Assembly: GCA_018607135.1 (NCBI GenBank)
Contig: JABBCA010000070.1
Coordinates: 1 to 64,000, forward strand
From: Opitutales bacterium
GTDB taxonomy: Bacteria > Verrucomicrobiota > Verrucomicrobiia > Opitutales > Coraliomargaritaceae
Reading direction: 5' to 3'
DNA: 64,000 nucleotides
Shown here: positions 4,271-6,630 of the stretch, one piece after another
Layout of the letters: every line of letters starts with the position of its first letter
How positions within the stretch are numbered: the stretch's first letter is position 1
The notes under the pieces: generated by a model
Told to the model about the DNA's origin: nothing
The model's database searches: none
What the model saw: only the letters and a program-made list of their open reading frames with translations
Made by a program: the position numbers and the translations under genes

Positions 4271-5467
4271 CTAGTGCTGGATCTCGTAAGTGAGGGTCTT
4301 GCCTTCGTGCTGGATGGTGACGTGGTTTTGCCCGTCTTCGCGTTGAGTGGCTTCGGTGCGGCCCACGATTTGTGCAGGGATGCCATAGGCTTCACTTTTG
4401 GCGATGATGTCCGCGGCGGCTTCGGGCTCGCAGTAGATATCCATGCGGTGGCCCATGTTATAGACTCGGAACATTTCTTCGTCACTGGTGCCACTGGCTT
4501 TTTGGATCGCCTTAAAGATTGGGGGCACAGGTAAGAAGTTGTCCTTTATATGGTGGACGCCTGTGCCGAATCGGATGCATTTAGTCTGGCCGCCGCCAGA
4601 GCAGTGCACCATGCCGTAGATTTCGTCGCGATTCTCGGTTAAGAGTTGTTTGATGATGGGCGCGTAGGTGCGGGTTGGGCTAAGGAGTGCGTCGCCGACG
4701 GTCATCGTGGAGTCAGGAAGCGGGTCGCTCATTTTGTATGGGCCGCAGTAGAGGTATTGTTTGTCGGTGGTGAGGTCGACTGTTTCTGGATACTTATCGA
4801 GGTAGTATGGGCTGAGTAAATCGTGGCGGGCGCTGGTTAAGCCGTTGCTGCCGATGCCCGAGTTCTCGAAGGTCTCATAGGTGGCTTGGCCTGAAGATGC
4901 GAGGCCGACGATGACAAGACCGGGCTTGATGTTGGCATTATCGACCACGTCTTTGCGGTCCATTACTACGACTGCACAGGAATCAACAGTGACGGTGCCG
5001 GTGAGGTCGCCGACGTCGGCCGTCTCACCGCCGCCGCTGTGAACGCCGACTCCGTATTCGCGGAGTGTCGCTAGGAAGTCTTCGGTTCCGGAAATGAGCT
5101 GGCCAAGCGCTTCAGCAGGGATGGCGCGGGCGTTGCGGTTGACTGTGCTGGAAATGAGGATGCCATCGATTGCGCCGACGCAAAGCAGGTCGTCGATATT
5201 CATGACCAGACTGTCTTGTGCGGTCTTGCGGAAGCCTGTCGGGTCGCCTGTTTCACGGTAGTGCAGGTAGGCGAGGGTGCTCTTGGTGCCCGAACCATCT
5301 GAGTGGATGATGTTACATTTCTCAGAATCTCCTGTAAGGATGTCGGCGCCGATCTTACAAAATGCACCTGGGAAAACGCCACGGTCAAGATTGTCCACGA
5401 CTGCGTGGACTTCAGATTTGGAGGAGGAGACGCCGCGTTGGGCATAGCGATCGGATGAGTTGCTCAT
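4271..5467 (-). CDS. purM: Phosphoribosylformylglycinamidine cyclo-ligase (AIR synthetase)
   Basis: A 398-residue enzyme of purine synthesis that closes the imidazole ring of AIR using ATP. The N-terminal [17 protein letters not shown] region, [15 protein letters not shown] and [10 protein letters not shown] are the PurM nucleotide and substrate-binding blocks, [12 protein letters not shown] is the conserved Gly-rich Asp-containing loop, and the C-terminal half carries HCSGGGQTK. At 398 residues it is longer than the E. coli enzyme (345) and resembles the longer form found in Bacteroidota-like lineages. It is the last gene of the minus-strand operon. Its start codon is only 14 bases from the inverted-repeat arm of the GxxExxY cassette, so the cassette forms its 5' leader. 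Confidence 0.96.
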
Positions 5468-5481
5468 GGAAATGTGATTTG

Positions 5482-5513
5482 AACCGTTAATTTACGTTAA
5501 TTAGCGTTAATTT
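5482..5513. repeat. Left inverted-repeat arm, three 10-bp iterons
   Basis: A 32-base arm. From 5485 it contains three tandem 10-mers, CGTTAATTTA, CGTTAATTAG and CGTTAATTTT, which share an eight-base core. The reverse complement of 5957-5988 differs from it only at position 17 (T against G). Confidence 0.9.
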
Positions 5514-5520
5514 TTTATGA

Positions 5521-5568
5521 CTGGAAATGCGTGATGCTGGAAATGCGTGATGCTGGAAATGCGTGATG
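5521..5568. repeat. Three perfect tandem copies of a 16-bp unit
   Basis: The unit CTGGAAATGCGTGATG occurs three times in a row without a mismatch, followed by a partial CTGG. It lies inside the cassette between the left arm and the GxxExxY stop codon. Confidence 0.95.
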
Positions 5569-5576
5569 CTGGGTTA

Positions 5577-5954
5577 TCATGAGTTTAAGGTGACTTTGCG
5601 CCACTGTAAACTTGGTTGTTTGAAGTTTATAATCAGGCCTACGTTTTTCTTGGTTACACGTAGGTAGCTTAACATTTGCCCCAGTTCGTAGTCTGCAATC
5701 TCCTCAATGGTCTTGGTGTCGACAACTATACTGTCTTCTACCTCAAGATCGGGAATATACTCATCAACTTTTACTCCACGATAGACAATCGGGTATTGAG
5801 CCTGCTGGCTGAATTGAATGCCTAAATGTGTTAGTTCGACTACTAGTGCACGCTCGTAAGTTTTTTCACGAAGTCCGTATCCAAGTTCACTGTGAACTTT
5901 CATCGCCGCCCCAATCACTTTATAAATCAGTTCCTCTATCTTCTCTTCTTGCAT
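5577..5954 (-). CDS. GxxExxY protein (PDDEXK_3-type)
   Basis: A 125-residue protein of the GxxExxY family. The naming motif is visible as GLREKTY near residue 28. The later strand region YIPDLEVEDSIVVDTK fits the D-x(n)-(D/E)xK core of a PDDEXK nuclease fold: D71 or D78-region acids and a DTK lysine. The cellular role is not established; these genes are abundant and patchily distributed in Verrucomicrobiota, Lentisphaerota and Planctomycetota. Here the gene is the only one inside an inverted-repeat cassette, in the same direction as the flanking operon, so it may be expressed by read-through. The ATG at 5954 directly follows the repeat arm. Confidence 0.92.
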   Translation of the reverse strand: MQEEKIEELIYKVIGAAMKVHSELGYGLREKTYERALVVELTHLGIQFSQQAQYPIVYRGVKVDEYIPDLEVEDSIVVDTKTIEEIADYELGQMLSYLRVTKKNVGLIINFKQPSLQWRKVTLNS

Positions 5955-5956
5955 TT

Positions 5957-5988
5957 AAATTAACGCTAATTCACGTAAATTAACGGTT
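5957..5988. repeat. Right inverted-repeat arm, next to the GxxExxY start codon
   Basis: The mate of the arm at 5482-5513. It begins 2 bases upstream of the GxxExxY ATG, so it occupies the position of that gene's ribosome binding site and leader. Confidence 0.9.
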
Positions 5989-6630
5989 TTAGATGATTTC
6001 GTATTTCGGAGCTTTTAGCTCCGTAATACGCGCCATGATGCGGCGAGAGGCTTCTAGGTAGCGTTCGGGGTGGTCTTTCCCGGGATCGATCTCGGCGGTG
6101 GTCATGGGCTTGCCGTAAGCGATGTGTATGGCGCCTCCGAGACTTGGGAGTTTGTCGTCACGTCCATAGACCTCATAAGTGCCGAAAAGGCGAGTGGGGA
6201 CGACTGTTGCGCGAGATTTGCATGCAATCATGCCCGCACCTGGCTTTGGCTCTGCGAGTTGGCCATCTGCGGAGCGAGTGCCTTCGGGGTAGATTGCAAT
6301 CGCTCCGTTGTTTTTGAGTGCTCGGAATATCGCTTTAAGTGACTTAATGTCAGCTTGTTCGCGAGCCACGGGGATGGCCTCGAGTTTGTGGAGCGCTTTG
6401 CCGAAATTACCTTTAAATAACGTGTCGCGAGCGAAGTAGTTGATATGGCGGTGGACTTGGCAGCCGATTGCGGGTGGATCAAAAAAGCTTACGTGGTTGG
6501 CGGCAAAGATGACGCTGCCTTCGAGTGGCACGTGACGCATGCCTGAGGTGCTAAAATCGTAAAAGGTGCTGAAGAACCAATCAGAAACAATTCGGACGTA
6601 GTTGTAGAACGTGGGAATTTTAGGACGCAT
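5989..6630 (-). CDS. plsC: 1-acyl-sn-glycerol-3-phosphate acyltransferase
   Basis: A 213-residue acyltransferase that adds the second acyl chain to make phosphatidic acid. The catalytic HX4D motif is in AANHVSFFDPP, the glycerophosphate-binding motif is YPEGTRS, and the block VPTRLFGTYEVYG follows. It has one hydrophobic N-terminal stretch, so it probably sits on the inner face of the membrane. It follows cmk with 29 bases between them. The stop codon lies directly against the right arm of the inverted-repeat cassette. Confidence 0.93.
   Translation of the reverse strand: MRPKIPTFYNYVRIVSDWFFSTFYDFSTSGMRHVPLEGSVIFAANHVSFFDPPAIGCQVHRHINYFARDTLFKGNFGKALHKLEAIPVAREQADIKSLKAIFRALKNNGAIAIYPEGTRSADGQLAEPKPGAGMIACKSRATVVPTRLFGTYEVYGRDDKLPSLGGAIHIAYGKPMTTAEIDPGKDHPERYLEASRRIMARITELKAPKYEII

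Follow-up and report, generated by a model that had tools for sequence, protein, structure and literature searches.

A GxxExxY nuclease gene between inverted unit arrays at an operon junction: a candidate minimal mobile cassette

In an Opitutales bacterium, a single GxxExxY gene lies between plsC and purM, enclosed by a pair of nearly perfect inverted repeats that fill the junction almost from one gene to the other. This raises the question of whether the unit is a mobile element, an element acting at the level of RNA, or simply an old operon gene, and what its repeats are for. The unit was studied within a 64,000-nt stretch of contig JABBCA010000070.1 (the window), in the remainder of its own genome, and in related genomes and other phyla. 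Its features are collected in Table 1.

Table 1. Features of the cassette and its host genes in the window
Feature	Position	Strand	Description
purM	4271..5467	-	host gene, transcript-downstream; slot boundary, start codon 14 nt from arm
purM-side inverted arm	5482..5513	+	terminus AAC, then three CGTTAAT units (5485-5491, 5495-5501, 5505-5511), period 10
three copies of the 16-bp unit CTGGAAATGCGTGATG	5521..5572		between GxxExxY gene stop and purM-side arm
GxxExxY gene	5577..5954	-	125-aa compact predicted PD-(D/E)XK nuclease; TIGR04256, PF13366
plsC-side inverted arm	5957..5988	-	mirror-image array, CGTTAAT / CGTGAAT / CGTTAAT on the - strand, within 5959-5985
plsC (acyltransferase)	5989..6630	-	host gene, transcript-upstream; slot boundary, stop codon abuts arm

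The arms are 32 nt each, complementary at 31 of 32 positions (97%) as a preliminary description of this DNA had reported, and are separated by 443 nt. A scan of the 64-kb window (pairs of 20 bp or more, 12-bp exact seed, span below 1.2 kb) found no further inverted pair, and theirs are the only two triple arrays in the whole window (0.1 expected in shuffles). The preliminary description had also given all units a shared core; there are indeed three phased units of 7-8 bp per arm, but CGTTAATT is carried by five of the six, the middle unit of the plsC-side arm being CGTGAATT. Both outer boundaries were reproduced, at the purM start and at the base adjoining the plsC stop, and the GxxExxY start codon lies 2 nt from the plsC-side arm. 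The claim that GxxExxY is the only gene inside also holds, in that its PD-(D/E)XK frame is the only ORF of at least 80 aa within the unit and matches both family models; no DDE, HUH, serine or tyrosine recombinase was found among ORFs of that length there. Terminal inverted repeats, as in insertion sequences and MITEs, are present in this unit and at most other GxxExxY loci. The CTGGAAATGCGTGATG repeat inside the unit had escaped the preliminary description; diverged versions of it occur in the orthologous cassettes of two relatives (G004 and G011), where it has been expanded differently and part of it is joined to both arms.

The window protein matched TIGR04256 (E 1.8e-38, 131.4 bits, curated cut-off 35) and PF13366 (PDDEXK_3; E 5.1e-35, 120.8 bits, curated cut-off 22). 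A Foldseek search with its AlphaFold model (pLDDT 95.2) returned LHK-Exo, SSO0001, which we take to be a Cas4 nuclease, and lambda exonuclease at probability 1.00, with TM-scores of only 0.50-0.56. In the family alignment, E30, D69 and K81 are conserved and Q93 and Y97 are nearly invariant, while D79 of the window protein is E in most members. The predicted active site comprises E30, D69 and D79-x-K81, plus the Q93xxxY97 motif; E30 (of the GxxExxY motif itself), D69, K81 and Q93xxxY97 presumably fit the RecB/Cas4/lambda-exonuclease branch of PD-(D/E)XK enzymes. The model is consistent with a compact PD-(D/E)XK nuclease of this branch. PADLOC returned no anti-phage defence model for the protein, and neither an anti-phage nor a phage reading was supported by the searches made.

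GxxExxY genes are under purifying selection, with a median dN/dS of 0.10 over 56 pairs and synonymous sites saturated in many. Where both neighbours of a cassette lie on the same strand, the GxxExxY gene is co-directional with them in 88 of 92 cases (88:4; 59:3 in a smaller earlier count), the neighbours being taken as simple long ORFs, not curated genes. This orientation makes it probable that the gene is transcribed as part of the host operon, and the window cassette, which has no evident promoter, is probably expressed by such read-through.

The genome of origin (G000) holds nine GxxExxY matches. The preliminary description had proposed looking there for further copies of the arm, each beside a GxxExxY gene; copies were found, but all are degenerate, three solitary sequences with two to three mismatches on contigs C62, C82 and C2, none of them next to such a gene, and the arm is not otherwise exactly repeated. 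Inverted arrays also enclose other GxxExxY genes of this genome, with different units such as CGCAAAG (L006, gatA-gatB junction); some genes have a plain inverted pair instead of an array (L004). The window cassette is therefore single-copy in its genome, while the architecture recurs there. Three contigs (C18, C28 and C33; loci L002, L003, L007 and L009) end inside GxxExxY genes of a CGCTTAT class, so that recent near-identical copies probably broke the assembly. Palindromes of CTTAATC/CTTACTC units were also seen (L012 on C62 and L345 on the gatA side), and a palindrome of this type flanks a four-helix-bundle gene in G018 (L217).

The same arrangement is widespread. When the best inverted match between the 350 bp upstream and the 350 bp downstream of each gene was scored (threshold 14), inverted arrays flanked 85% of 72 GxxExxY genes in related genomes, compared to 4% of 3,000 cross-paired controls. 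In a scan of all phyla, 68% of 74 loci had them against 12.5% of cross-paired controls, in one subclade (A2) whose shared unit class inflates that control. These loci came from Verrucomicrobiota, Planctomycetota, Gammaproteobacteria, Desulfobacterota, Chloroflexi, Nitrospinota, KSB1 and others. Most other GxxExxY genes thus do have flanking repeats, the lack of which the preliminary description would have counted against its idea. A typical arm has three units of 7 bp with the consensus CRCnRA(G/T/A), at a period of 8, 9 or 10 that is mostly constant within an array; unit sequences differ between cassettes and agree within one. The arrays converge on the gene in most loci, and 48 of about 150 loci have exactly one strict array on each side. 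In one relative, seven arrays at 199-bp steps lead up to a GxxExxY gene (G032:C13:121724-122940).

What the arms conserve was seen by comparing left and right arms within 95 cassettes, both phased by the left arm alone. Mismatches amounted to 10% in unit cores and 33% in spacers, those in cores falling mostly at position 4 (30%, compared to 4-8% at other positions). Arms taken from different cassettes with the same spacing and the same last base differed at 37% of core and 62% of spacer positions. Arm mismatches were G-U-compatible in 71 cases and incompatible in 95, showing no G-U excess. These comparisons indicate that the unit cores are maintained through some form of sequence recognition. 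Since spacers also agree beyond expectation (33% against 62% mismatch), the arms are in addition homogenised, were once copied from each other, or pair as well.

Array type also follows the protein. On a tree of 87 GxxExxY proteins, the last base of the unit requires 7 changes, compared to 26.9 after shuffling, and 0 of 200 shuffles came as low. The period clusters on the tree as well, with CRCNRAG at period 8-9 in one half and CRCRRAT at period 10 in another, and with smaller clades of CGCTTAA and CGCAACG. Given saturated synonymous sites and low dN/dS, neutral sequence would have been randomised; that unit type tracks the protein tree nonetheless is the main reason to propose that each protein recognises its own array. 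This recognition is our interpretation of an association computed from sequence, and that association could stem in part from array and gene being inherited together.

Orthologous operon junctions show how such cassettes come and go. The plsC-purM junction was compared in 29 genomes. In outgroup genera it is short and without a cassette. In genera g1, g3 and g9 it is occupied by intact GxxExxY cassettes (G000, G004, G011 and G018), by frameshifted or deleted remnants in sister species (e.g., G001, G014, G024, G027, G032 and G034), or by a four-helix-bundle gene (TIGR02436) in G002, G010, G030 and G036, with different arrays around it in the first three. G010 additionally has a CGTTAAT-type cassette one gene away, upstream of plsC. 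The comparison that the preliminary description had recommended thus yielded empty outgroup sites, replacement and decay, but also the cassette itself at the same junction in relatives. Being single-copy, with its nearest kin at the plsC-purM slot of other species, the window copy may be old. At the leuB-alaS junction, G018 and G027 have flanks that are 95% and 97% identical, while their GxxExxY genes are 68% identical and their units are CGCAGAT and CACGAAT, respectively. One of these cassettes is common to G018 and G034 (99%) and the other to G027 and G032 (97%); since assemblies made independently agree in this, chimeric contigs are an unlikely explanation. Whole cassettes have therefore been exchanged between close species at fixed orthologous slots. 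Further slots show similar turnover among palindromes of different classes. At one of them, the gene of G018, G036 and G030 lies between two directly repeated copies of an array-spacer-array block of about 75 bp, while G014 and G024 have one block and no gene; this may represent insertion with duplication, or loss by recombination.

Arrays also occur without a gene. Of the relatives that have GxxExxY, 25 of 27 contained exact array patterns; of those that lack it, 4 of 30 did (Fisher p 7e-10, uncorrected for phylogeny or genome size). The four are G003, G012, G016 and G052, in which no GxxExxY gene was detected, and G012 holds a decayed cassette. The period-10 pattern gave about 250 matches, compared to 2 for a backwards control, and the period-8 pattern, with its higher background, gave 487 compared to 24, of which 365 were in G043. 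That genome shows extreme amplification, with long runs of CACAAAGG units. Many array matches in relatives form converging pairs that are separated by 40-130 bp and enclose no gene. Such dispersed gene-less inverted pairs are characteristic of REPIN/RAYT systems; of the window class, the own genome has only the three solitary degenerate copies. All 28 arrays examined in G038 start with ATC directly before the first unit, mostly with no evident similarity further out, and no target-site duplication was apparent by eye around these 28. Near-identical short elements in G010 (L286/L287) and G024 (L301/L302) were considered as signs of recent movement and left uncounted, as their homology extends past the arrays and the copies are nested. 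These array palindromes, together with L303 in G024, lie inside other inverted-repeat elements, with ends such as CTAGTGTGGAGCACGCTAAGTTAGTG, and were copied along with them.

GxxExxY is not the only gene found in this setting. Four-helix-bundle (TIGR02436) genes lie between inverted arrays in 52% of cases, compared to 2.8% of controls (L195-L224), with unit classes of their own such as GTTAGAAG, GGCTGTA and GTTTTCAG, and they co-occur with GxxExxY in 24 of 26 genomes. We take this protein to belong to the family encoded in 23S rRNA intervening sequences, of which Coxiella reportedly provides a case. Because these genes share the architecture, array ends are not private to the GxxExxY nuclease, and homologous recombination through the flanks, or a second enzyme, becomes the more possible.

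It is probable, on this evidence, that the window unit is a complete minimal mobile cassette of the autonomous type, whose nuclease most likely recognises its own arrays as DNA ends. The architecture, the co-variation of arrays and proteins, the exchange of whole cassettes, decay and empty sites, the orientation bias and purifying selection are directly supported; we infer sequence-specific binding and cleavage by the protein, a DNA route of movement, and mobilisation of short palindromes in trans. The preliminary description had seen either a non-autonomous cassette or a nuclease-like gene with its own repeats as recognition sites or as means of mobilisation, with a logic like that of RAYT/REP or MITE systems. 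The latter view is well supported by the flanked kin, by units that track the protein tree, by whole swaps and by abundant gene-less palindromes. The 'non-autonomous' view fares less well, as the gene-bearing unit looks autonomous and the label would suit the short palindromes better. Read-through from the host operon transcript would supply the nuclease, which would explain why cassettes are almost always co-directional. Acting on double-stranded DNA, the protein would bind the phased units of both ends, the unit being particular to each protein lineage, and would cut at the cassette ends or at a target, either an array-bearing slot or an operon junction. Repair-mediated copying by the host might then insert the cassette or replace a resident one, so that the same slots would cycle through invasion, decay and loss before being invaded again, and the short gene-less palindromes would be non-autonomous (REPIN/MITE-like) derivatives mobilised alongside. 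A wider proposal, which we put forward tentatively as a serious possibility and not as the expected outcome, is that 'array-ended operon cassettes' form a categorically new class of mobile DNA over many bacterial phyla, in which a stand-alone Cas4-like PD-(D/E)XK nuclease recognises the triple-unit arrays at its ends, invades fixed operon slots or replaces the cassettes there, and mobilises gene-less palindromes, while the unrelated four-helix-bundle protein does the like in parallel, occupying those slots with array classes of its own.

Other explanations have to be weighed against these data. The arrays might be moved by another enzyme or by plain homologous recombination, with GxxExxY and the four-helix-bundle protein as cargo kept for, e.g., regulation or addiction. 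That two unrelated proteins share one inverted-array architecture and even one slot fits this idea, as do gene-less palindromes and arrays in four genomes without a detected GxxExxY gene. Cassette swaps could likewise stem from ordinary recombination through flanking genes, as at leuB-alaS with its 95% identical flank. Against this, unit sequence and period track the GxxExxY protein tree across phyla, and one of the four genomes (G012) retains a decayed cassette; we regard this explanation as unlikely.

An element acting on RNA, like the 23S rRNA intervening sequences, is less probable still. The arms would form a transcript hairpin that is cut out or processed, with the protein acting on RNA, in keeping with the strong co-direction in operons (88:4), with arm cores that are about 90% complementary, and with the similar arms of a protein presumed to be of the intervening-sequence family. 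Against it, mismatches concentrate in spacers and at core position 4, G-U-compatible changes are not in excess, inverted sites cannot both read as one single-stranded RNA motif, and Rfam returned no structured-RNA match for the element. The hairpin reading was disfavoured for its lack of a pair-conserving excess and because cores are conserved over spacers. Least credible, and already disfavoured, is that these are ancient non-mobile operon genes, inherited from a single ancestral insertion in the family, with arms kept alike by template-switch correction of palindromes and by slippage. The same slots are filled across genera and the spacers of both arms agree beyond chance, as such descent would have it, but cassettes that are unrelated or strongly diverged sit between near-identical flanks, one slot holds two gene families, the protein has relatives across phyla, and homogenisation by itself would not keep cores more alike than spacers.

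If nucleases of this kind do recognise their own arrays, the consequences extend beyond one operon. GxxExxY genes are abundant and listed as of 'unknown function', and co-varying arrays allow the family to be tested as a mobile-element enzyme, each protein having a predicted recognition sequence that can be read from its own flanks. The scattered CRCNRAG/T-type repeats of bacterial genomes would be explained, a PD-(D/E)XK nuclease would join the short list of mobility enzymes, and the family could be a source of small sequence-specific nucleases whose targets are read from their flanks. Searches by repeat sequence and family name, in literature other than subscription journals and bioRxiv, found no description of the system.

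Among known systems, the closest in logic is REPIN/RAYT (TnpA-REP), in which a repeat-flanked nuclease gene is likewise accompanied by many gene-less inverted pairs, mostly intergenic and often between unidirectional genes. RAYTs are HUH Y1 tyrosine nucleases with single strands as substrate, and the REPs themselves are tagged hairpins (PMC3733652, PMC3116915). The cassette differs in its predicted PD-(D/E)XK nuclease and in its arrays, each of three phased 7-bp units whose sequence varies from one protein lineage to another; it was rejected as REPIN/RAYT proper since its protein is of the PD-(D/E)XK type and not a HUH Y1 tyrosine transposase. MITEs and their parental insertion sequences are similar in that short gene-less elements share the inverted ends of a longer gene-bearing one, but in the cassette neither a DDE transposase nor a target duplication was recognised. 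Proteins of the PD-(D/E)XK_2 (YhgA/Rpn) type have been proposed as parents of a Thiomargarita MITE family (PMC4853749), a precedent in enzyme class only. Rpn/YhgA proteins have also been linked to RecA-independent DNA transfer (PMC5350276) and reported as toxin-antitoxin defence (PMC10327210); they form a separate Pfam family, PF04754, and the abstract of the former report (PMC5350276) says nothing of flanking unit arrays. Homing endonuclease genes resemble the cassette in that an orthologous slot is repeatedly intact, decayed, empty and re-invaded by a small nuclease gene alone. Unlike them, the cassette lies outside any intron or intein, has its own inverted arrays and uses operon junctions as slots, and homing itself is only an analogy here. 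The 23S rRNA intervening sequences with an S23/four-helix-bundle ORF also place a small ORF between complementary arms in a transcription unit, and related four-helix-bundle genes fill the same slots here; the cassette arms, in contrast, are unit arrays in protein-coding operons, and pairing is not the conserved feature. Tandem 7-bp intergenic units are shared with the TAACTGA heptamers of Beggiatoaceae, which occur immediately before start codons in numerous intergenic regions of several phyla; these are mostly direct sets, interpreted as post-transcriptional regulation, with no flanked nuclease reported in the portion of that work available (PMC4679880). The TAACTGA sets of Beggiatoaceae and cyanobacteria could be arrays of a similar general kind. 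Comparison with about 150 relatives from many phyla, in which such units are exchanged whole at fixed slots while each enzyme lineage retains its own repeat, suggests that minimal mobile cassettes of this sort make up a large family not described before. By analogy, the cassette would be a variant of self-flanked mobile elements, REPIN/RAYT-like in logic and different in enzyme class and end design.
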